Assembly (NCBI GenBank): GCA_016290415.1
Contig: JAEETP010000003.1
Location: 20,059-84,058, forward strand
Source: Bacteroidales bacterium
GTDB taxonomy: Bacteria > Bacteroidota > Bacteroidia > Bacteroidales > UBA932
Direction of reading: 5' to 3'
DNA length: 64,000 nt
A program made the position numbers and the translations under genes. Under the pieces are notes generated by a model. It was given only the letters and a program-made list of their open reading frames with translations, was not told where the DNA came from and did not search any database. Below are positions 10,789 through 21,485 of the stretch, piece by piece. The first letter of the stretch is position 1. Each line of letters starts with the position of its first letter.

Positions 10789-13029
10789 TTATTGGGCTGA
10801 GTATACGATCTTGTTGAACCTGAAGAATCCGGCTTGAGTGCCGCGCTTCAGGTCAATCTGAATCCTGTAATACATATTTGCCTGAGGATTGGTAACGGTG
10901 GCAGTAACATCACCCTGACCGGTTCCGTCGAATTCGTAAGTAGTGGTTGAACTGAAGGTATTGGTGGGTGATACAACCAGTCTGATGGCGTTGACCAGGG
11001 AAGGATCAGACTGGGTTATCGACAATGTCACTGTCTTAATTGCCTCCTCAATCGGTGAATTGGTTGTAATGGCAGCCACTGAAGTGTTATCGCTACGCCC
11101 GGCGCGCATCTCTGTCCAATTGGCGTCACCGCCATTATTGATGTATGCTACAGTCAGGTTCAAACCATCACATATATTGATGAAAGATGTGGTATATGTG
11201 GTGACGTTTGTGGTAAAGGTGGTGCCTTTTGCGAATGTAACAGTGTAAGGACGGCTGGGGTCGGTGACCGCAACGTTGCACGTTGCGGATGCGGCGTGGT
11301 ATGACGCATTACCGGCAAATACAGCAGTGATAGTTGCAAAGCCTCTTGCAACACCTGTCAGTTCGCCAGTAGAAGGATCAACGGTAACAACATTGGGGTT
11401 GGAAGATGAATACGTTACCGGAAGTCCGGAAGGTTCTATGGATACAATATTGCTTACTCTTTCGTCCACATTAACAGATATGTTAGAAGTAAAGCCCATA
11501 GAAGGCGTTGGGAGAATAGGCTCATCTGCTTTCACGCGTACATAGAAGGCGAAAGTTTGGTCCTTAATATTTTCAGGGATATCACTAAACAAATCACTAA
11601 TAATTGGTATGTAAGAATAACGACGCCAATCAGAAGAATTATAAATTCCTACCAAACAATTCCTGTTGGTATTAAAAAGATAACCGTGATAAATAGAGAA
11701 GGTGTTGTCACTATTAGTACCAACGCGTACACCATCATTACTTCCTGTGCAGTAAAGCCAAGTGGACGTATTACCGTTAGGATAGAAATGGTAGACCGTT
11801 CCCCACCACCGATGAGAATCCGAGCTCAGCGACCACCGGATCCTCTCTGCAGGCTCTTTTTTAAGTCTGCTGCCGTCGGCCGTCAAAGTCACAGGAACAG
11901 CCTGAGGCGCAGCAGAGGTACCCTTATCGTTCGACATAGCAAAAGTATTACCATTATCGCCCACGATGACGAATACGTCATCAGATGTAATGGAAGAAAT
12001 ATCTCGTTTAACCCAGTAATACTCCTCCTTCTGTTCTGTCTCTGCAGAAGCCATATTGATGCCCATAGTGTTGCGTGCATTCCCCTTGAGGGTCTTGCTG
12101 ATTCCCGTCCAACTCTTATGATATGTCGCCTTGTCGGTCTCTACCACAACATCGAGGGATGTAAGGGTCACCGGCATTACGCTGAGCCAGATATTGATAT
12201 TCGTTTTGTTCTGCGCATCTTTTACAAACGAGAGGTGCGAACCGTCGAGCGTAACGACATTCGACGTTCCGTTGCCGGTGAATGAGCCATCTGCCACGGA
12301 AACAACCTGTTTGCCGGTAAGGTTTGCACCTTCCTGAGCTGTGAGAACCACCTTGAGGATGTGCTCGTCATCTTCAACTCCCTGGAAGTCCTTGAGGGTA
12401 AAGTTACCGTGAGCCACAACGCGGGTCCAATACAAGTTGATGTGTTGGGAAGGGAGTCCGGTGGACCTTACGGTCTTGGACTTGCCAACCAGAATGTCTG
12501 TCTCAGGGTCAAAGGAGTCTGCTGCGGGAATCTGGTATTCCTTCAGGGCAACAGGCACATTAGGAGCACCATTCTGGTCCGTATTAAATTGAGAGCTGGG
12601 GTATACCGCGTAGAATACAAAGTCTCCGGTTTCTGTAGGGCCGGTAAAAGCATTGGTAACAGGTACGGAAAAAGTACCGATGTTTTGCTTCTCTGAATCT
12701 ATGGTAACACCGTTGGACTTATAGAATTTGATGCTATTGTTTGGAGATGCATTTCCGCTTGCATATGCGGCACTCTTGGCCCACCAATTACCGTTGAATG
12801 TAAAGCCAATAAGAATCTTGTCGTCCGTCGACCAAACAATTGATTTTGTGCCTGCGTCCCATGCAGTCTTGGTGGAGGGATCCAGCTGCGGTCTTTCTCC
12901 GGTAAAAGTCAGCTCTGTAACTTCACCGATAGTGTTACCGTTATCCAGACGTTCTTGATCAAGGCCTTTCGAGCACGAAACAGCCGCGAGAAGAGTAACA
13001 AAAATTGCGAGTAAATATCTTTTCATCAT
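10789..13029 (-). CDS. Fimbrillin-like (Mfa/FimA-type) lipoprotein with Ig-like domain, copy 1
   Basis: A 746-residue surface or periplasmic lipoprotein. The signal peptide MMKRYLLAIFVTLLAAVSC ends in the lipobox AVSC, with the lipid Cys at about 19, followed by SKGLDQE. The first ~320 residues resemble fimbrillin-like N-terminal domains of Bacteroidales pilin-type lipoproteins. A bacterial Ig-like (BIG2) domain lies at about 505-590, marked by VTYSSSNPNVVTVDPSTGELTG. The C-terminal ~150 residues form a beta-rich module shared with copy 2. It is about half identical to its neighbour at 13357-15639 and follows a 52-residue peptide gene by 18 bases, so the two are co-transcribed. Role as adhesin or pilus component is inference. 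A second Met codon follows the first. Confidence 0.85.
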   Translation of the reverse strand: MMKRYLLAIFVTLLAAVSCSKGLDQERLDNGNTIGEVTELTFTGERPQLDPSTKTAWDAGTKSIVWSTDDKILIGFTFNGNWWAKSAAYASGNASPNNSIKFYKSNGVTIDSEKQNIGTFSVPVTNAFTGPTETGDFVFYAVYPSSQFNTDQNGAPNVPVALKEYQIPAADSFDPETDILVGKSKTVRSTGLPSQHINLYWTRVVAHGNFTLKDFQGVEDDEHILKVVLTAQEGANLTGKQVVSVADGSFTGNGTSNVVTLDGSHLSFVKDAQNKTNINIWLSVMPVTLTSLDVVVETDKATYHKSWTGISKTLKGNARNTMGINMASAETEQKEEYYWVKRDISSITSDDVFVIVGDNGNTFAMSNDKGTSAAPQAVPVTLTADGSRLKKEPAERIRWSLSSDSHRWWGTVYHFYPNGNTSTWLYCTGSNDGVRVGTNSDNTFSIYHGYLFNTNRNCLVGIYNSSDWRRYSYIPIISDLFSDIPENIKDQTFAFYVRVKADEPILPTPSMGFTSNISVNVDERVSNIVSIEPSGLPVTYSSSNPNVVTVDPSTGELTGVARGFATITAVFAGNASYHAASATCNVAVTDPSRPYTVTFAKGTTFTTNVTTYTTSFINICDGLNLTVAYINNGGDANWTEMRAGRSDNTSVAAITTNSPIEEAIKTVTLSITQSDPSLVNAIRLVVSPTNTFSSTTTYEFDGTGQGDVTATVTNPQANMYYRIQIDLKRGTQAGFFRFNKIVYSAQ

Positions 13030-13047
13030 ACAATGTTTTAATCAAGA

Positions 13048-13206
13048 TTAATCACCATCATCACCAAGCTCACCAAGGTCTTGGTCGCCATAGCCAGCAT
13101 TGGAATCGTTGCCACTGCCGGACTGGAGAATGTTCTCCTCGAAAACCAGCTCGAGGATTTCGGTTACAGGCTGAGAATAAATCTCTTTTTCCTTTTTTAC
13201 GTTCAT
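13048..13206 (-). CDS. Small acidic 52-residue peptide upstream of lipoprotein copy 1
   Basis: The gene encodes 52 residues: a charged start (MNVKKEKEIYSQP), a segment VTEILELVFEENILQSGS, and a Gly/Asp/Asn-rich tail ending GELGDDGD. It is not a signal peptide. A near-identical gene precedes lipoprotein copy 2; the only protein change is Val14 versus Leu14. Similar short proteins with a P-x-x-E-hydrophobic segment and an acidic Gly-rich tail are common next to fimbrillin-type genes in Bacteroidales, with no known function. The leader-plus-polar-tail layout also resembles a RiPP precursor, notable because a PqqD/kinase/peptidase/ABC cassette lies nearby. No good -7 box is seen; the nearest candidate, TATATTCG at 13253-13260, has one mismatch. 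Confidence 0.75.
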   Translation of the reverse strand: MNVKKEKEIYSQPVTEILELVFEENILQSGSGNDSNAGYGDQDLGELGDDGD

Positions 13207-13293
13207 TTTTGTATAGAAATGTTATTATTATCGACGATAAATTTTTCGGGCGCGAATATAGTAACTTTTTGGCAATTTTGATACCATAAAAAT

Positions 13294-13325
13294 AGCAGCC
13301 ACCCGGGAAGGTGGCTGCTGTCTTA
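13294..13325 (-). terminator. Terminator of the second fimbrillin-like lipoprotein gene
   Basis: GCAGCCACC (13295-13303) pairs with GGTGGCTGC (13310-13318); on the - strand it is followed by TATTTTTATGG. Nearly the same stem as at 10721, which supports duplication of the whole transcription unit. Confidence 0.7.
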
Positions 13326-13356
13326 TCAAGGTAGGGATTAGACCTCCAGAATTGCG

Positions 13357-15639
13357 TTATTCTGCGTAAATAATCTTGTTGAACCTAAAGTGACCGTTCG
13401 AACCATTATTATAATAACTACCATCACCTTTCAAATCAATTTCAATCCGATAATACATATTAGTCGCAGGAGCAGTTATGGTAGCTGTAACATCACCTGT
13501 GCCAGTAACATTAAAGGGGTATGAGTCTGCTGAATTAAAGTTATTTGTGGTGGATACAAACAACATGACAGAGTTTACAAGGTTAGTGTTAACTTGTGTA
13601 ATTGATAATGTTACTGAGTTAATAGCTTCTGGAATGGCTGAATTGGTTGTTATTGTAGCCACCGAAGCGCGTTGTCTATTACGCCCAGCGCGCATTTCTG
13701 TCCAATCCTCGTTGCCACCATTATTGATGTATCTCAGAGTAAGGGCTAATTCATCGCAAGTGTTAACAAATCCTGTTGAATTAGTATATGAGGTCACATT
13801 TGTTGTAAATGTAGTGCCTTTCTTGAAAGTAATAGTATAAAGATCTCCAGGATTGACAACATTAACCTCACAGGTTGCAGAAGCAGGATTATAGGATGCA
13901 TTACCTGCAAAGTTGGCGTGGATGGTGGTTGTACCACGAGAAATGCCTGTTACTTCGCCTGTGTCGGGATCTACGGAAGCAATGGAATCATCATCTGAAT
14001 AGTATGTCAAAGCCAGTCCGGAAGGATCAGTGGATGCCATATTGCTAACGCTCTCGCCCATATTAACTGTTATAGGAGAAGACGTAAAGCTTATAGAAGG
14101 TGTAAGTAGGTCATCATCTTCAGCGACTCTCACATAGAATGCAAAAGTCTGGCCGTTAATATTGGGTATTTGACCATTATTACTCCGCGCATAACAACGC
14201 CAATCCGTTGAGTCGTAAATGCCAATATAGCGTCTTGAATTCCCAACGGTATTCACTAGATAGCCAGAACGCCCCATCTCGAATAATTTGTTGTCACCTG
14301 TGCCAACCCTAACGACATCACCAGTAGAGCTGGTGCAATAAAGCCAAGTAGTTGTAGAACCATTGGGATAGAATGTGTAATATGTCGTTTCGCCAGACGA
14401 TTGTTTGCTGAGATTCCACTGGAGCGTAGCTGAGGGATCACCAATAAGTTTGTCGCCAGTAGCAGTAACCGAAACGGGAACGGCGCTAGGTGCGGATGTG
14501 TCACTATTATTAGACATTGCATATGTATCTCCATCATCGCCGACAATTACAAATACATCAGTCGTAGTAATAGCGGATATGTCTCTTTTAACCCAATAAT
14601 AATTCTTTTTCTCCCTGGTTGCAGAGGCCATATTTATGCCCATAGTGTTGCGGCGATTGCCCATGAGGGTCTTGCTGATTCCCGTCCAACTCTTATGGTA
14701 TGTCGCTTTGTCGGTTTCAACAACAACATCCAGCGCGGTCAGGGTCAACGGCATAACACTGAGCCACACCTTCAAATTTGTTTGTTCTTCGGAAGTGGTG
14801 GGATCTACTTCATTTACAAATGAAAGGTTTGTACCATCAAGTGTGACAGTATTTGATGTGACATCGCCGAGATAATCACCAGTGGCTAAGGATATTTTTT
14901 GTTTGCCCGTCAAGTTGGCACCTTCCTGCGCTGTAAAAACAACCTGGGTGATGGTCTCGTCATCTTCAAATCCTACAATTCTCTGGAAATTCTTCAGTGT
15001 GAAATAGCCGTGAGCCACAACTCGTTTCCAATACAAATCAATAGTTTCAGTAGGGAAGCCGGGTTCGCTGGTTGTGATAGTATGAGAGTTGCCTACCAAT
15101 ATGTCTGTTTTGGGATCAAAGGAGTCATCTACGGGATACTGATATGAATTTAGAGTTGCGTAGATATCAGGGACAGCATTCTGTGTATTGGTGTTAGCCA
15201 GAGTGCTGGGATAGAACGAATAAAAGACAAATTCTCCCGATTCTGTGGGGCCGGTAAAGGCATTATTACCGACAGGAACGGTAAAAGTACCAATGTTCTG
15301 CTTCTCTGAATCAATAGTAACACCGTTCGACGTATAGAATTTAACGTTACCGGAACCACTGATGGCGGCATTTTGTCCCCACCATTCTTCATTAAATGTA
15401 AAGCCTATACGAATCTTGTCGTTCTCCGACCAGACGATTTTTGAACCATCCCAGGCAGTCTTGGTGGAGGGTTCCAATTGAGGCCTTTCGCTGGAAAATG
15501 TAAGATACGTGGTTACTTGATCAATGGCGTTATTGTCGTTGGTATTATTGCCATCAATGCGCTCTTCCTCGAGGCCTTTGGTGCAAGAGGCGAGGGCGAG
15601 GATCGAAACGAAAAATGCGAGTAAATATCTTTTCATCAT
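13357..15639 (-). CDS. Fimbrillin-like (Mfa/FimA-type) lipoprotein with Ig-like domain, copy 2
   Basis: A 760-residue paralogue of the preceding lipoprotein. The signal peptide MMKRYLLAFFVSILALASC has lipobox LASC and is followed by TKGLEEER. The order is the same: fimbrillin-like N-terminal region to about residue 330, a middle region containing the shared block YYWVKRDIS, an Ig-like domain (about 520-605, with DPDTGEVTGISRG), and a beta-rich C-terminus ending FRFNKIIYAE. Shared blocks such as TYHKSWTGISKTL and MGINMASA run through both copies. It lies 18 bases after its own 52-residue peptide gene. Surface lipoprotein, possibly pilus-tip or adhesin; the partner is unknown. Confidence 0.85.
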   Translation of the reverse strand: MMKRYLLAFFVSILALASCTKGLEEERIDGNNTNDNNAIDQVTTYLTFSSERPQLEPSTKTAWDGSKIVWSENDKIRIGFTFNEEWWGQNAAISGSGNVKFYTSNGVTIDSEKQNIGTFTVPVGNNAFTGPTESGEFVFYSFYPSTLANTNTQNAVPDIYATLNSYQYPVDDSFDPKTDILVGNSHTITTSEPGFPTETIDLYWKRVVAHGYFTLKNFQRIVGFEDDETITQVVFTAQEGANLTGKQKISLATGDYLGDVTSNTVTLDGTNLSFVNEVDPTTSEEQTNLKVWLSVMPLTLTALDVVVETDKATYHKSWTGISKTLMGNRRNTMGINMASATREKKNYYWVKRDISAITTTDVFVIVGDDGDTYAMSNNSDTSAPSAVPVSVTATGDKLIGDPSATLQWNLSKQSSGETTYYTFYPNGSTTTWLYCTSSTGDVVRVGTGDNKLFEMGRSGYLVNTVGNSRRYIGIYDSTDWRCYARSNNGQIPNINGQTFAFYVRVAEDDDLLTPSISFTSSPITVNMGESVSNMASTDPSGLALTYYSDDDSIASVDPDTGEVTGISRGTTTIHANFAGNASYNPASATCEVNVVNPGDLYTITFKKGTTFTTNVTSYTNSTGFVNTCDELALTLRYINNGGNEDWTEMRAGRNRQRASVATITTNSAIPEAINSVTLSITQVNTNLVNSVMLFVSTTNNFNSADSYPFNVTGTGDVTATITAPATNMYYRIEIDLKGDGSYYNNGSNGHFRFNKIIYAE

Positions 15640-15657
15640 ACAATGTTTTAATCAAGA

Positions 15658-15816
15658 TTAATCACCATCATCACCAAGTTCACCAAGGTCTTGGTCGCCA
15701 TAGCCAGCATTGGAATCGTTGCCGCTGCCGGACTGGAGAATGTTCTCCTCGAAAACCAGCTCGAGGATTTCGGTAAGAGGTTGAGAATAAATCTCTTTTT
15801 CCTTTTTAACGTTCAT
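15658..15816 (-). CDS. Small acidic 52-residue peptide upstream of lipoprotein copy 2
   Basis: Twin of the gene at 13048-13206 and nearly identical at the DNA level from the lipoprotein start through the whole peptide gene. The protein has the same charged N-terminus, the LELVFEENILQSG segment and the acidic Gly/Asp tail, with Leu at residue 14. A -7 box (TAACTTTG) lies 49 bases upstream. The strong conservation of a tiny open frame, including both ends, argues that it is translated. See copy 1 for possible roles. Confidence 0.75.
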   Translation of the reverse strand: MNVKKEKEIYSQPLTEILELVFEENILQSGSGNDSNAGYGDQDLGELGDDGD

Positions 15817-15865
15817 TTTTGTATAGTAATTTTATTATTCTTCTGGGTACAAATTTTACAAACCG

Positions 15866-15873
15866 CAAAGTTA
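15866..15873 (-). promoter_or_regulatory. -7 box (TAACTTTG) for peptide and lipoprotein copy 2
   Basis: Matches TAnnTTTG on the - strand, 49 bases upstream of the small peptide ATG, within the divergent intergenic region shared with the nucleotidyltransferase gene. Confidence 0.5.
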
Positions 15874-15911
15874 AAAATTTTCCTGAAAATACGTAGTATT
15901 TTATAATTCAC

Positions 15912-15919
15912 TACTTTTG
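15912..15919 (+). promoter_or_regulatory. -7 box (TACTTTTG) with 7-base spacing to the ATG
   Basis: Matches TAnnTTTG and ends seven bases before the ATG at 15927. With Bacteroidota promoter geometry, transcription would begin at or next to the start codon, giving a leaderless message. Confidence 0.6.
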
Positions 15920-15926
15920 CAGTGAA

Positions 15927-17048
15927 ATGGCAAAGGAAAACCGACATACCTCCGCGTTTTTTGCGCTGATGAGGGCGGGGCTCTGGGAGACCGGGGCTCG
16001 GCTGGGGGTGTATGCGCCGGTGGACTGGGAGGCGATATACAATCTGGCGCTGGAGCAGTCTGTGGCGGGGATTGTTGCGGCTGGATTGGACCAGGTGGAA
16101 GATTTGAAGGTGGCCAGGCAGGATGCGCTGCGCTTTGTGCAGCAGGTTATCCCGCTGGAGAAGCGCAACTCCGATATGAATGCCTTTATCTCAGAGCTGG
16201 TGGGTAAGCTGCAGCTTGATGGCATCCGTGCCGTGCTTATAAAGGGGCAGGGGGTGGCGCAATGCTATTCAAAGCCTCTGTGGCGTATGTCGGGCGACGT
16301 GGATCTGCTGCTTGACCAGGAAAACTATAATAAGGCGAAAGAACTGCTGCTTCCGATGGCCTCGGCGGTTGAAAGGGAGCACCCAAGAAATCTTCACCAG
16401 GGGTTGGAATTCGGCAAATGGGTGGTGGAACTTCACGGCAGTTATCACGCAAATATCTCGAAGCGGTCGGCGGCGGTTTTGGACCGGCTGCAGGGCGAAA
16501 CTTGCACAGGCGATGCGACCCGCACCTGGCGCAATGGCGAGGTGGACATTCTGCTGCCGAGCCCCGACAACGACACCCTGTTCATCTTCTCGCACATCCT
16601 GCAGCACTTTTTCTTTGGCGGAATAGGGCTGCGCCAGGTATGTGACTGGTGCCGGCTGCTGTGGACTTATAGGGAGAATATTGACCGGCAGCTGCTGGAA
16701 TCGCGGATAAAGGAAATGGGCCTTATGACCGAATGGAAGGCGTTCGCGGCTCTGGCGGTGAAATGGCTGGGAATGTCGGAAGAGGCGATGCCGCTCTATG
16801 ACGCATCGGCACGCTGGGAGCGCAAAGCCAGCCGAATTGTCAAATTCATCCTGAAGGTCGGCAACTTTGGCCACAACCGCGACATCAGTTACCACCAGAA
16901 ATATCCGTTCGTGATATACAAAGCAATTTCGCTGGCGCGCCATACGGGCGATTTTTTCAGATATCTTACAATCTTCCCCCTGGACTCGTTTGGAGTCTAT
17001 TTCAGGATGCTGGCATCGGGCTTCGAGACCGCCGCGAAAGGGGAGTAG
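15927..17048 (+). CDS. Nucleotidyltransferase-fold protein (NTP_transf_5 type) of a RiPP-like cassette
   Basis: A 373-residue protein resembling the uncharacterised nucleotidyltransferase family PF14907. The core motif is RAVLIKGQGV followed by WRMSGDVDLLLD, with D124 and D126 as the expected metal-binding pair. A conserved-looking WVVELHGSYH block follows, and the C-terminal half is helical. Homologues occur in RiPP clusters, especially lasso-type, with PqqD, HPr-kinase-like and S24-type peptidase genes; the reaction is not firmly known to me. Here it is convergent with exactly such a set, ending five bases from the ABC transporter stop. Its predicted leaderless promoter matches that of the kinase gene at the far end of the cassette, hinting at shared control. 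Confidence 0.75.
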   Translation: MAKENRHTSAFFALMRAGLWETGARLGVYAPVDWEAIYNLALEQSVAGIVAAGLDQVEDLKVARQDALRFVQQVIPLEKRNSDMNAFISELVGKLQLDGIRAVLIKGQGVAQCYSKPLWRMSGDVDLLLDQENYNKAKELLLPMASAVEREHPRNLHQGLEFGKWVVELHGSYHANISKRSAAVLDRLQGETCTGDATRTWRNGEVDILLPSPDNDTLFIFSHILQHFFFGGIGLRQVCDWCRLLWTYRENIDRQLLESRIKEMGLMTEWKAFAALAVKWLGMSEEAMPLYDASARWERKASRIVKFILKVGNFGHNRDISYHQKYPFVIYKAISLARHTGDFFRYLTIFPLDSFGVYFRMLASGFETAAKGE

Positions 17049-17053
17049 TGCTT

Positions 17054-18679
17054 TTATTCGGGTATATCGACTACGGCATCTGCAAAGCGGATGGCGGCGT
17101 CGCGGTGTGAGATAAGGATGATGGTCTTGCCGGCGTGATGGCGGCGATGGATGTTCTCCAGCATCCGGCTTTCGGTGTCGGCGTCCAGGGCAGAGGTGGA
17201 TTCGTCAAGAATAAGTATGCCACCGGGACGCAGCAGGGCACGGGCTATGGCGATGCGCTGCGCCTGACCTTCTGACAGGCCGCTGCCTGACTCTCCGCAG
17301 GGGGTGTCTAGTCCCTCCGGCAGATCATATACGAAAGCGGCTTCGGCGGTGTAGAGCGCCTCCTTGATTTCACTTAGGGAGGCATCTTCTTTGGCCAGCA
17401 GCAGGTTGCTGCGGATGGTGCCGCTGAGCAGGGAGTTGCCCTGTGGCACGTACATAAAGTTGACTCTGAGAGCGCCTCCTGCAGGGTGGCCATCCACTGT
17501 GATCTGGCCCTCGGTGGGTTGCAGCAGGCCCAGGATAAGGTTGATGAGGGTGCTCTTGCCCACTCCGGTAGGGCCGGTGATGACATTGAATGAGCCGGAT
17601 TTGAACTGACAGGAAAAGTTCTTGAGCACAGGCCTGCTTAAATCTGGATATGCGAAGGTCACGTTGGAAACCGTGACTTCCGGTGCATCGGGTAGCAGAA
17701 TGGATTCCGCCTTGGGCTCTTCTTCAAGCTCCTGAAGGTCCATCAGGCGTTCTATGGAGGTGATTGCCCTGATGAATGTGGGAACCTGGCGGCCAAGTTC
17801 TGCGATGGGGCGCTGTACCTGTCCAACCAACTGTAAGAAGGCGGTCATCATACCGTAAGTTACGGTTCCGGCGGCTAGGCCAAAGATGCCCCACAGGAAG
17901 GCGGCTACGTGTCCGGCCTGGAAGCCGAGCAGCATCAGACCTCGGGCAAATGCATTATAGTTGAGGCGCTTGCGCGTCTTGCATTCGATATCTGACTGGA
18001 GCCAGCCAAAATGGGTCATTATCCGCTCTACACCCGTAAGCGTCAGCATCAGCACGCGATGCTGAAAGCTTTCTTGCATAGTCTGCTGGACTTCGCTCTC
18101 ACGGGCGCGTATCTCCGCCATAATCTTACGGAACCTTTTGAAGAACAGTCTGGACCCGACCACTGCGGCAAACATCAGAATAATAAGTACCCAAAGCAGG
18201 TTGGGGGCCAGCGTCAATAGATATACAGATGCTGCCAGCAACTGTGCAAGTGTGATGATAATGCCCGGGAAAGAGTCCACAAGCAGATCTGAAGTGATGC
18301 GGATGTCGTCTTCCAGACGGTTCACGATGTCGCCCGAGAGGAACTTCTCCCGGCCATTCCAGCGGCTGCGGAGCACGTGGCCGAAAAGCTGATTGCGGAT
18401 GTGGTTTTGCGCCTTGACGCTGTTGTATGAATTCCACCAGTTGGCAAAGATGATTACGGCAATCTGAACCGCCAGGATCCCTATGAACAGTGCGATGCCC
18501 CGGCCCAGGGAGTCACTGCTCACCTTGGTGGCGATATCCACCAGGTGTTTGCTGGCCCAGACAAAACCCAGCGATGCAGCTATTCGCACAAGGCCCGCGG
18601 CGATGCTTACCAGCATCCGCCACCGAAGGGTGGAGGACATAGCCCACAGGGTTTTTATGCATTCAGAAAGTTTACGCAT
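17054..18679 (-). CDS. ABC transporter, fused membrane and ATPase domains (half transporter)
   Basis: A 541-residue type I exporter subunit that probably works as a homodimer in the inner membrane. About six helices occupy residues 20-300. The ATPase follows: Walker A GPTGVGKST (369-377), Q-loop around VPQGNSLL, signature LSEGQ (469-473, a variant of LSGGQ), Walker B ILILDEST (488-495), and H-loop His525. There is no C39 peptidase domain, so leader removal would need another enzyme; the S24/S26 peptidase encoded upstream fits. The gene starts three bases after the PqqD stop, in an operon of kinase, peptidase, PqqD and ABC transporter. Likely cargo is the processed peptide of this cassette (inference). 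Confidence 0.9.
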   Translation of the reverse strand: MRKLSECIKTLWAMSSTLRWRMLVSIAAGLVRIAASLGFVWASKHLVDIATKVSSDSLGRGIALFIGILAVQIAVIIFANWWNSYNSVKAQNHIRNQLFGHVLRSRWNGREKFLSGDIVNRLEDDIRITSDLLVDSFPGIIITLAQLLAASVYLLTLAPNLLWVLIILMFAAVVGSRLFFKRFRKIMAEIRARESEVQQTMQESFQHRVLMLTLTGVERIMTHFGWLQSDIECKTRKRLNYNAFARGLMLLGFQAGHVAAFLWGIFGLAAGTVTYGMMTAFLQLVGQVQRPIAELGRQVPTFIRAITSIERLMDLQELEEEPKAESILLPDAPEVTVSNVTFAYPDLSRPVLKNFSCQFKSGSFNVITGPTGVGKSTLINLILGLLQPTEGQITVDGHPAGGALRVNFMYVPQGNSLLSGTIRSNLLLAKEDASLSEIKEALYTAEAAFVYDLPEGLDTPCGESGSGLSEGQAQRIAIARALLRPGGILILDESTSALDADTESRMLENIHRRHHAGKTIILISHRDAAIRFADAVVDIPE

Positions 18680-18682
18680 AGG

Positions 18683-18949
18683 TTATTCGAGTATGCCGTT
18701 TTCCCGCCAGATGTTCACCATTGTGGTGGCATCTTCGCGAGCGCGGTCTGTGGATACTTCATATCTCTCGGTGAGCAGTGTCACCAGATCTTCTATTTCA
18801 AAGTCTTTGTCCTTGACCTGTTCCCAAAGGTAAGCCGCGGAGTCGTTCAGGGAGAGCATTTTGTTGAAATCTACCAGTGCGAGACCTTCTGCAATTACTA
18901 TATGCTCCCCGCATAGGGAGCGAAGGGTAAAGCCGTCTTTTATCTTCAT
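18683..18949 (-). CDS. PqqD family peptide chaperone
   Basis: An 88-residue PqqD-like protein (winged-helix RiPP recognition element). Visible hallmarks are DFNKMLSLNDSAAYLWEQV near the middle and the helical C-terminus with LTERYEVSTDRAREDATTMV. PqqD-type proteins bind the leader of a precursor peptide and present it to modifying enzymes. The longer frame reaching 19075 is not used. The ATG at 18949 overlaps the upstream peptidase stop as ATGA (18946-18949), which suggests translational coupling. Its presence is the main reason to read this operon as a peptide-maturation cassette, though no precursor lies inside the operon. Confidence 0.85.
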   Translation of the reverse strand: MKIKDGFTLRSLCGEHIVIAEGLALVDFNKMLSLNDSAAYLWEQVKDKDFEIEDLVTLLTERYEVSTDRAREDATTMVNIWRENGILE

Positions 18950-19356
18950 ACTATTCGTCGGTATATTGCCAGTAAATATCTTCTGATAGGTTTGAGCAGG
19001 CGCCAAAGGGTGCCGCGGGTGGGTTTGTGGCCGTTTATGAGCACCACGGTGCCCAGTATGTCTTGCGGCCGGCAATGCTCGGTGCCGGAGATGTTTCCGT
19101 CGCCCATAAGTTCTATCTTGCCGTCGCAGGTTTTTATGACACGGTGCAGCACATAACGGGTACCCGCCAGGCGCGCCAGTACTATGTCGCCGACTTCTAC
19201 TCCAGGGAGTTTTTTAAGCGTCACGCTGTCCCTGCCGCCCTTGATAAAGGGAAGCATACTGGTTCCCTTTGGGGTGATGCATACCTCGCGGCCCTCTGCT
19301 AGCAGAGCGCCCGCATCTTCCAGCAGGACTTCGTTGGTGAGGGTCTTTCTATCCAT
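18946..19356 (-). CDS. S24/S26-type signal-peptidase-like serine protease
   Basis: A 136-residue protein of the S24/S26 peptidase clan. The box GTSMLPFI contains the predicted nucleophile Ser33, and YVLHRVI contains His71, giving a Ser-His dyad as in SipW/Sec11-type signal peptidases rather than the Ser-Lys of LepB. PGVEVGDIVL forms the usual beta-strand between them. No clear membrane helix is seen. It overlaps the kinase gene by eight bases and the PqqD gene by four, so it belongs to the same transcript. Likely role: removal of the leader from a PqqD-bound precursor. Homologues accompany PqqD, kinase-like and nucleotidyltransferase genes in lasso-type loci. Confidence 0.8.
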   Translation of the reverse strand: MDRKTLTNEVLLEDAGALLAEGREVCITPKGTSMLPFIKGGRDSVTLKKLPGVEVGDIVLARLAGTRYVLHRVIKTCDGKIELMGDGNISGTEHCRPQDILGTVVLINGHKPTRGTLWRLLKPIRRYLLAIYRRIV

Positions 19357-20212
19357 TTACGGTATTGTAACAGAGTAGGGCGGCATCGCGGTCCGGGCGG
19401 CATTCCAGGCGGTAGAACGGGACTGCAGCGCAGATTCCCTCCAGAGTCCGGTGCCAGCCGTCGGCGCATTCTTTAACAGGCCGGAAAGAGGATGAGGATT
19501 CCATCAGTGTGGCGTAGGCCTGGATTACCGTCAACTTTTTGATATGGTTTTGTGGTGCCTGGCACAGGCTTACGATGGCACCCACGGGGGCGTCCTGGGC
19601 CTTGTAACAGGGCGTCTTGCCGCTCCAGGGGGTGCCATAGACACGGACGGTGCCATCGGGCATCAGCCTGAGGACCGGGTTGTCGTCGTTTAGCAGTTCG
19701 GTGCCGGGGATGTTTTCTATCCACAGGCGGCTGTGGGTGCTCTTACCGGTGCCGCTCCGGCCCAAAAACAAGTAGCCCTTGCCGCAGTTTGTCACTACGG
19801 ATGAGTGTATTACAAGGGCTCCTTTCTGTGCTGTGGAGAAGGTGAACATCAGCATCATGGCCGAGTCAATGGCGTAGCGGTCGTCTGTGCCTGTAAGGTG
19901 TAGTTCGGCACTCTTGAAGTCTTGAGTGACGGCCATCCGACCAGCCGCAGGCTTGTCCGGAACCGGCTGCATTTCAAAGATATAGCCGTTTTCGCTGGTA
20001 TATATGGTGATGACGGGGAAGCCGGGCGTTTCCGGGGTTTTATATAGCAATGAACTGTTTGCCACCGGCATATCAGGCGTCACTCTGAGGGCAAACAGGA
20101 CCTCTATCTCGGGTGTCTGTACCCTGAAAGGTAGTAAGTTAGCAGGCTCGAACGGCAGGTCCTCCGCCGTAAAGCAGAACCCCGCAACGCTATATGCCTG
20201 AAAGCTTTTCAT
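19349..20212 (-). CDS. HPr-kinase-like (HprK/PEPCK-fold) protein of a RiPP-like cassette
   Basis: A 287-residue protein whose C-terminal half has the HPr kinase/PEP carboxykinase-like nucleotide-binding fold: Walker A GRSGTGKST (151-159), followed by HSRLW, NDDNPVLR (about 175-182) and GTPWSGKTP (about 193-201). Homologues in lasso peptide clusters phosphorylate the precursor at its C-terminal Ser, which is the established precedent. It is the first gene of the operon. The upstream TTG at 20218 is ignored in favour of ATG 20212, seven bases after a perfect -7 box, so the transcript is probably leaderless. No HPr or phosphotransferase genes are nearby, which argues against a role in carbon catabolite control. 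Confidence 0.8.
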   Translation of the reverse strand: MKSFQAYSVAGFCFTAEDLPFEPANLLPFRVQTPEIEVLFALRVTPDMPVANSSLLYKTPETPGFPVITIYTSENGYIFEMQPVPDKPAAGRMAVTQDFKSAELHLTGTDDRYAIDSAMMLMFTFSTAQKGALVIHSSVVTNCGKGYLFLGRSGTGKSTHSRLWIENIPGTELLNDDNPVLRLMPDGTVRVYGTPWSGKTPCYKAQDAPVGAIVSLCQAPQNHIKKLTVIQAYATLMESSSSFRPVKECADGWHRTLEGICAAVPFYRLECRPDRDAALLCYNTVNG

Positions 20213-20227: not shown

Positions 20228-20256
20228 AAAATTATTTCAACACTTATGAAAATTGT

Positions 20257-20264
20257 TAAATTTG
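20257..20264 (+). promoter_or_regulatory. -7 box (TAAATTTG) for the OmpA-family gene
   Basis: Matches TAnnTTTG on the + strand, 39 bases upstream of ATG 20304, divergent from the kinase promoter. Confidence 0.55.
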
Positions 20265-20303
20265 CAGTTCCTATCAGAAAAAGTATTATTAATTATTATA
20301 ATT

Positions 20304-21485
20304 ATGAAGAAATTATTCTCAATCATTGCACTTGCGCTGCTGGTGACTTTCGCAGCTGGTGCGCAAGATGAAAAAACTTTCTATCCCGGTTTCTATCTGG
20401 GTATTCAGGGTGGTGCCAACTACACTACTTCCAACGAGTGGGCCATCAGTCACTGGGATCATATCAATTTACCCAATGTTGCTCTGAATTTTGGTTATGA
20501 CTTTACTCCTGTATTTGGTCTGCGCGCCAATCTGAGCGGTCCGTTTGCCAATTTCCCCGGTGCTGACCACGCTACCATCAACAAGTTCAATTATGCTCAG
20601 GCCGCCGTGGACGCAACCTTTGACATCTGCAATATTTTCAAGGTTAACGCTCATCGCCTGCTGAATCCCTACTTGTTCCTGGGTGCCGGCGCCAACTACC
20701 GTTTTGCAGCTAACGACCAGCCTGCATATCTTGGCCCCGTAGTTCGCCTGGGTGGTGGAATGGACATCCGTCTGAGCAATCTGGTGGATCTCTCTTTCGA
20801 ACTTTTGGACAATGGCTTGAACAACAAGTTCAACACTCTGGACGACAATGAGTTCTTTGGTGGCGAAATCCTAATGTGGAAGAGGCCCTTCAGGTGGGAT
20901 GACAATTTTGCTGCTCTGGTCGGCCTGAAGTTCAACATCGGCGCCAACAAGGCCCGCAAGGCTGCTGCCGTTGCAGCTGCCGAGGCCGCCGCTGCCGCAG
21001 AGGCTGCACGTCTGGCCGCAGAAGAGGCTGCCCGCCGCGAGGCTGAGCGTCTGGCTGCCGAGCAGGCTGAGGCAGAGCGTCTTGCCGCTGAGAAGGCAGA
21101 GCAGGAGCGTCTGGCTGCTGAAAAGGCCGAGGCAGAGCGCCTGGCTGCCGAGCGTGCCGCTGCCCGTTCCATCACCGAGAATGTTTACTTCCTCCTCGAC
21201 CGCACAAATATCCGCAAGAGCGAGCAGGAAAAGATTGACCACATCATCGCCGTTATGAACGAGTATCCCGAGGCAGTGGTTGTTATCGGTGGTCACGCAG
21301 ACAAGGAGACCGGTAATGCCAAGCATAATATGAAGCTCTCCGAGGGTCGTGCAGACAACGTTGCCAAGGCTCTCAAGGATGCAGGTATCGCTGAGGACCG
21401 CATCACTGTAGAGTACTACGGTGACACTCAGCGCGTAAGTGACGTTCGCGAAGAGAACCGTGTATCTGTTTGTGTTACTAAATAA
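20304..21485 (+). CDS. OmpA family outer membrane protein with Ala/Glu-rich coiled linker
   Basis: A 393-residue outer membrane protein. A signal peptide (MKKLFSIIALALLVTFAAGAQ) is followed by a predicted eight-strand-type barrel (about 22-225, with FGYDFTPVFGLRANL), a long Ala/Glu/Arg coiled segment built from repeats such as AERLAAEKAE (about 228-295), and a C-terminal OmpA domain that binds peptidoglycan (GGHADKETGNAKHN and SEGRADNVAKAL). It anchors the outer membrane to the wall. The TTG start at 20253 would overlap the -7 box and is rejected. It reads divergently from the kinase operon and ends eight bases from the convergent GNAT gene. Confidence 0.92.
   Translation: MKKLFSIIALALLVTFAAGAQDEKTFYPGFYLGIQGGANYTTSNEWAISHWDHINLPNVALNFGYDFTPVFGLRANLSGPFANFPGADHATINKFNYAQAAVDATFDICNIFKVNAHRLLNPYLFLGAGANYRFAANDQPAYLGPVVRLGGGMDIRLSNLVDLSFELLDNGLNNKFNTLDDNEFFGGEILMWKRPFRWDDNFAALVGLKFNIGANKARKAAAVAAAEAAAAAEAARLAAEEAARREAERLAAEQAEAERLAAEKAEQERLAAEKAEAERLAAERAAARSITENVYFLLDRTNIRKSEQEKIDHIIAVMNEYPEAVVVIGGHADKETGNAKHNMKLSEGRADNVAKALKDAGIAEDRITVEYYGDTQRVSDVREENRVSVCVTK

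Follow-up and report, generated by a model that had tools for sequence, protein, structure and literature searches.

The closest described system is the family of linear polyphosphorylated peptides (LPP) reported from Bacillota by Popov et al. (2026), with the lpp cluster of Paenibacillus alginolyticus (PMC13381572). The LPP core consists of a SpI-type peptidase, a discrete RiPP recognition element (RRE), an HprK-like kinase, an NTP transferase and an MsbA-like exporter, with no cyclase (PMC13381572). The RRE binds YxxP, with N33 and D70 of LppB hydrogen-bonding the leader, Ser3 of the core receives one to four phosphates from the kinase, and the peptidase LppS requires the RRE in order to cut off the leader (PMC13381572). 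The product is taken to be linear, deletion of lppN changed nothing detectable, and capsule loci are a frequent site of the clusters in Bacilli (PMC13381572). According to the authors, the family occurs in Bacillota only, and the string 'bacteroid' has no match in the main text of their paper (PMC13381572). Our literature searches returned no earlier report of the five-gene set in Bacteroidota, and the passages searched of a Bacteroidales RiPP survey give no sign of it (PMC10352776).

Here we describe a five-gene cassette from a 64,000-nucleotide stretch of DNA (the window) that is likely to be a version, in Bacteroidales, of the machinery that matures LPP, with an RRE, kinase, protease and exporter and with precursors that in relatives are mostly encoded in trans and are usually paired with a lipoprotein. 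The window is part of contig C122; the draft assembly has 156 contigs and is 89% complete with 7.2% contamination, and the relatives of this genome are Bacteroidales. A sequence-only reading had placed five RiPP-type genes at positions 15927–20212 and described the four minus-strand genes as overlapping or abutting. ORF calls and family searches, including Pfam matches, verified all five genes within this interval (Table 1), and adjacent minus-strand genes either share 8 and 4 bp or leave a gap of 3 bp. The nucleotidyltransferase gene is convergent with the ABC exporter gene. An OmpA-like gene with a periodic Ala/Glu/Arg-rich stretch (window 20253–21485) is divergent from the kinase gene, and an OmpA-like gene also lies beside the cassette in three relatives' loci (L035, L039 and L040). 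To the left of the window, contig C122 carries a long polysaccharide locus rich in glycosyltransferases (L065).

Table 1. Cassette, candidate precursor and lipoprotein genes, in window coordinates.
Feature	Position	Strand	Basis
HprK-like putative peptide kinase, 287 aa, LppK counterpart	19349..20212	-	P-loop, AF2 fold; peptide kinase role proposed by analogy
Signal-peptidase-like S26 protease, 136 aa, LppS counterpart	18946..19356	-	Catalytic triad, fold
PqqD-like RRE, 88 aa, LppB counterpart	18683..18949	-	Pfam PqqD, E 2e-15
MsbA-like ABC exporter, 541 aa, LppD counterpart	17054..18679	-	ABC_membrane + ABC_tran (ABC_tran E 8.7e-27)
NTP_transf_5 nucleotidyltransferase, 373 aa, LppN counterpart	15927..17048	+	Pfam, E 5.1e-33
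Putative precursor peptide 1, 52 aa	15658..15816	-	YxxP family; leader MNVKKEKEIYSQPLTEILELVFEENILQS, predicted core GSGNDSNAGYGDQDLGELGDDGD
Putative precursor peptide 2, 52 aa	13048..13206	-	Differs from peptide 1 by L14V
Lipoprotein paired with peptide 1, 760 aa	13357..15639	-	Big_2, E 1.4e-7; lipobox LASC; TKTAW
Lipoprotein paired with peptide 2, 746 aa	10789..13029	-	Duplicate of the 760-aa lipoprotein

The kinase has the P-loop FLGRSGTGKSTHSRLW, and residues G151, S153, G154, G156, K157 and T159 together with D177 are invariant among 29 sequences. Its AF2 model (pLDDT 94.8) gives PEPCK and HprK as the top PDB folds. The protein scores under all family cut-offs, with weak matches to ScmC, PEPCK and HprK_rel_A; against TIGR04352 (HprK-related kinase A), which belongs to the same superfamily, it reaches 17.1 bits, far under the curated threshold of 200. 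The peptidase barely passes its Pfam cut-off (Peptidase_S24, E 2.2e-5). Because a phmmer search of this protein against PDB sequences gave chance matches only, we turned to a fold search, in which the AF2 model (pLDDT 90.5) matched E. coli signal peptidase I (Z 11.5, 1.9 Å, 91 residues). A long membrane helix is absent from the model, and the Ser-His-Asp residues S33, H71 and D86 are invariant among 40 sequences.

The RRE profile finds its best solved relative in the lasso B1 protein TfuB1 (6jx3, E 6e-8), and the match to LppB (9x8z) is weak (E 0.18). Residues N35 and D73 align with N33 and D70 of LppB, and both are invariant in 12 sequences. Recognition of YxxP by this putative RRE is strongly supported by homology. 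The nucleotidyltransferase retains the conserved motif KGQG...R..GDVDLL (KG...R..GD[VI]D); in several relatives its gene lies within the operon, unlike the convergent copy in the window.

The sequence-only reading had reported no obvious precursor. However, a pair of YxxP peptide genes is present immediately beyond the interval it covered, and a third gene of this family is found on contig C33, upstream of another lipoprotein gene. YxxP is the motif bound by the PqqD-like RREs of both lasso and LPP systems. The peptide 1 gene starts 110 bp from the nucleotidyltransferase gene and is divergent from it. Genes 1 and 2 differ at five codons, four of them synonymous. Pfam and NCBIfam searches with the peptides returned nothing meaningful, the hits to Meis_PKNOX_N (E 0.05–0.2) being chance matches. 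The 760-aa lipoprotein gene begins 18 bp past the peptide 1 gene, and the N-terminal part of its product is fimbrillin-like (TKT..W..DKI). The two lipoproteins are identical at 466 of 779 aligned columns, with 74.7% nucleotide identity over 1.36 kb. Positions 10789–15816 form a peptide-lipoprotein unit in tandem duplicate, in which the peptide keeps 51 of 52 residues versus about 60% identity for the lipoprotein. Between the peptide 1 and nucleotidyltransferase genes (window 15863–15919), inspection by eye found matches to the Bacteroidetes -7 element TAnnTTTG in both directions, TAACTTTG on the minus strand and TACTTTTG on the plus strand, which suggests that these two genes may be divergently transcribed.

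A profile built from 15 peptides, which is short and weak and was applied to draft assemblies, detects many further peptides in relatives. Among 88 peptides, for which the tyrosine was fixed by construction, proline is present in 97%, V/I at Y+7 in 83% and [CLMA] at Y+17 in 95%. The pattern [CLMA]x[SGA] falls at Y+17/Y+19 in 66 of the 88, compared with 0–10 at other offsets. We considered the conserved serine at Y+19 as the phospho-acceptor and set it aside as the less likely reading, since the pattern ending there resembles a protease -3/-1 site; the phosphoserine of LPP is at Y+18 (PMC13381572). Two close peptide groups gave dN of about 0.11 against dS of about 0.7, indicating that the peptides are translated genes under constraint.

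Most peptide genes are followed by a lipoprotein gene. We scored this pairing on 58 peptide genes with enough downstream sequence: an ORF starts within -40 to +120 bp downstream of 53, and a lipobox gene follows 49 (about 84%), against a baseline of 17.7% for genes of like loci. Of the partner lipoproteins, 44/51 fall in one cluster and the motif TKx..W is present in 44/51, the cluster having a fimbrillin-like start (TK[TAS]...W..GD.I). Pfam returned mostly nothing for the partners and no shared family name, with weak matches to Mfa_like_1, Big_2, Lcl_C and Glug. The expectation that relatives without the cassette would keep the lipoproteins and lose the peptides held in part, in that three of ten such lipoproteins retain an upstream peptide.

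The sequence-only reading had proposed searching related genomes for the gene set and for small genes conserved with it. A PqqD relative occurs in 24 of 60 related genomes, and in the stretches around these genes HprK, the S26 peptidase and PqqD follow one another in this order, with the nucleotidyltransferase and/or ABC exporter after them, at about 20 loci. A second, independent collection comprises 80 named loci found with a kinase profile; there the kinase has a peptidase nearby in 73, PqqD in 70, the ABC exporter in 53 and the nucleotidyltransferase in 20. Because the HprK-S26-PqqD order recurs in both sets, the grouping is not due to chance. Judged from these gene neighborhoods, the set occurs widely across Bacteroidales, with hosts among Prevotella, Segatella baroniae B14, Bacteroides, Phocaeicola, Muribaculaceae and Paludibacteraceae. 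Fusions of kinase to peptidase (L046) and of peptidase to ABC exporter (L056) support a shared pathway. The cultured strain S. baroniae B14 has the kinase, peptidase and RRE together with three candidate peptides. A peptide gene lies within 10 kb of the cassette at just 15 of the 80 named loci, so the precursors appear to be served mainly in trans.

A variant locus was also seen. At L055:2775-5680 (genome G002), a 42-aa YxxP-type peptide is encoded with a radical SAM protein, PqqD, an S26-like peptidase and the kinase, with the ABC exporter and nucleotidyltransferase absent nearby; this locus is possibly a radical-SAM-modified relative of the system. Additionally, genomes of the same genus have a second, solo PqqD gene (L058:9869-10150, L059:9858-10148, L060:9824-10093 and L061:1545-1847), which neighbors genes for a large secreted protein (about 810 aa) and for a protein resembling chain-length regulators; kinase and peptidase are absent there.

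As for conserved small genes, the YxxP family tracks the cassette. In the family we compared 249 genomes, 144 of them with the kinase and 133 with peptides: both are present in 124, the kinase only in 20, peptides only in 9 and neither in 96 (Fisher p 1.8e-37, inflated by kinship). Peptide copies number 782 in the 144 kinase-positive genomes and 14 in the other 105. Across 295 genomes of the order, peptides are found in 17 of 20 genomes with a strong kinase match against 5 of 275 others, and the peptide-positive strong-kinase genomes cover 10 of 12 families. Within the genus, 14 cassette-positive genomes have 1–15 peptides, whereas 6 cassette-negative genomes have 0–4 (p 0.0016, again inflated by kinship). 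Shared descent raises all such counts and p-values, and sensitivity is biased because most of the seeds for the peptide search were taken from cassette loci in the window's genus; the co-occurrence repeats in families that yielded few or no seeds. Twenty cassette genomes have no peptide at E 0.01. Peptides without a detected cassette occur in G018 (four), G021, G008 and G012, and one in G024 was reached via a second route.

In the maturation pathway that we consider likely, the PqqD-like RRE would bind the YxxP leader of the short peptides, and the HprK-like kinase would phosphorylate a serine early in the core. The protease, to which the RRE would present the substrate, would cut after [CLMA]x[SGA], 16 residues past the leader proline; for the peptides of the window, this predicts cleavage behind S29. 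The ABC exporter would move the linear product to the periplasm, and the nucleotidyltransferase may add an optional further group. Each cassette may serve several precursors, three here and up to dozens in relatives, mostly in trans. Seen at the sequence level are the gene set, its conservation as a family, the invariance of the residues for catalysis and leader binding, and the existence of a peptide family that co-occurs with the cassette and is paired with lipoproteins; phosphorylation, cleavage site and export are proposed by analogy with the LPP experiments, and any function is likewise a proposal. The earlier proposal of a RiPP-type cassette with a linear, probably phosphorylated product agrees with LPP in its five enzymes and lack of a cyclase, although its precursor-less part does not stand. 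Nucleotidylation, also proposed earlier, finds no support in the unaltered outcome of the lppN deletion (PMC13381572), though the motif is intact in the window.

In a Gram-negative cell, an ABC exporter by itself can carry a product no farther than the periplasm. The periplasm is both the destination predicted for the product and on the route of the paired lipoprotein, and joint action is the simplest reading of the pairing. With most precursors paired with a fimbrillin-like lipoprotein, the peptide probably acts with that surface lipoprotein. A further proposal, which we hold tentatively and rate as somewhat short of probable, is a genome-wide service in which one trans-acting cassette matures a repertoire of up to dozens of precursors, each belonging to its own fimbrillin-like surface lipoprotein, and the phosphorylated peptides join or switch surface adhesins.

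The very tight pairing (49/58) could also be read in another way, in which the YxxP peptides regulate the next lipoprotein gene, either in cis as upstream ORFs or as co-translated companions, and are unrelated to the cassette. The persistence of the peptide-lipoprotein pair in a few genomes without a detected cassette fits this reading. However, what is conserved is an amino acid motif, which is under purifying selection and corresponds to the motif that RREs bind, peptide copies at L054 and L055 adjoin the cassette without a lipoprotein, and the genome-level association is strong across families. We therefore regard cis control as unlikely. A role of the cassette in polysaccharide or envelope assembly, with a sugar or cofactor kinase, an NTP transferase and a lipid flippase and with the peptides incidental, is very unlikely. 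The glycosyltransferase locus on the contig's left flank and Wzc-like genes beside the cassette in L035, L040 and L044 would suit it, and so would the lipid-flipping activity known for such ABC exporters, yet PqqD and a signal-peptidase-like protease indicate a peptide substrate and many cassettes have no polysaccharide genes nearby. Moreover, the Bacillota set is found in capsule loci and its substrates are nonetheless peptides (PMC13381572).

Paeninodin-type lasso clusters share a PqqD-like B1 protein, an HprK-like kinase, a nucleotidyltransferase, an ABC exporter and a [YW]xxP leader with the cassette. They differ in that an S26 protease stands here in place of B2 and the cyclase is absent from the locus, as the sequence-only reading had noted. 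The lasso B2 protease (PF13471) was found neither in the window's own genome nor in 25 same-genus relatives. No asparagine-synthetase-like cyclase was found on contig C122, with a clear match on contig C82 and others on C62 and C53, and none was recognized beside the inspected cassettes of relatives. Because the genome lacks B2 and contig C122 lacks a cyclase, the cassette is not a lasso system; even with the gene on C82, a lasso pathway whose cyclase is encoded elsewhere is barely credible.

If the LPP-type reading is correct, a RiPP family reported as confined to Bacillota extends to the dominant Gram-negative phylum of animal guts, and hundreds of precursors are added to it. The lipoprotein companionship would be the first lead on the biological role of LPP-type peptides, and the many short ORFs that stand unannotated in Prevotella, Bacteroides and their relatives would gain a suggested function. 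The idea is testable in S. baroniae B14, which is cultured and carries the kinase, peptidase, RRE and candidate peptides.

Compared with LPP, the window has all five core enzymes, in an order conserved in relatives, and YxxP precursors at the cluster with no cyclase. The RRE is likewise discrete and PqqD-like, with the equivalent two leader-bonding residues (N35/D73) despite the weak profile match to LppB, the peptidase has the Ser-His-Asp of archaeal/ER-type signal peptidases, and the surroundings are polysaccharide loci in several cases. In contrast, the host is Bacteroidota rather than Bacillota, and the LPP consensus YxxPxVLxHQxIxFETxxS lacks its HQxIxFET part here: YxxP is followed by (T)EVVEV..EGVI[CLMA]x[SGA] in place of VLxHQxIxFET. 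The spacing Px9Fx[T/A] of LPP becomes Px13[CLMA]x[SGA], which puts the cleavage-like site four residues farther from the proline. One cassette is associated here with many precursors per genome, mostly in trans, the precursors have a fimbrillin-like lipoprotein partner, and a nucleotidyltransferase lies near only a quarter of the cassettes (20/80). Because it departs from the full leader consensus, we class the cassette as a variant rather than a plain LPP member; it is tied to that family by the shared enzymes, the leader contacts of the RRE, the kind of peptidase and the YxxP motif.
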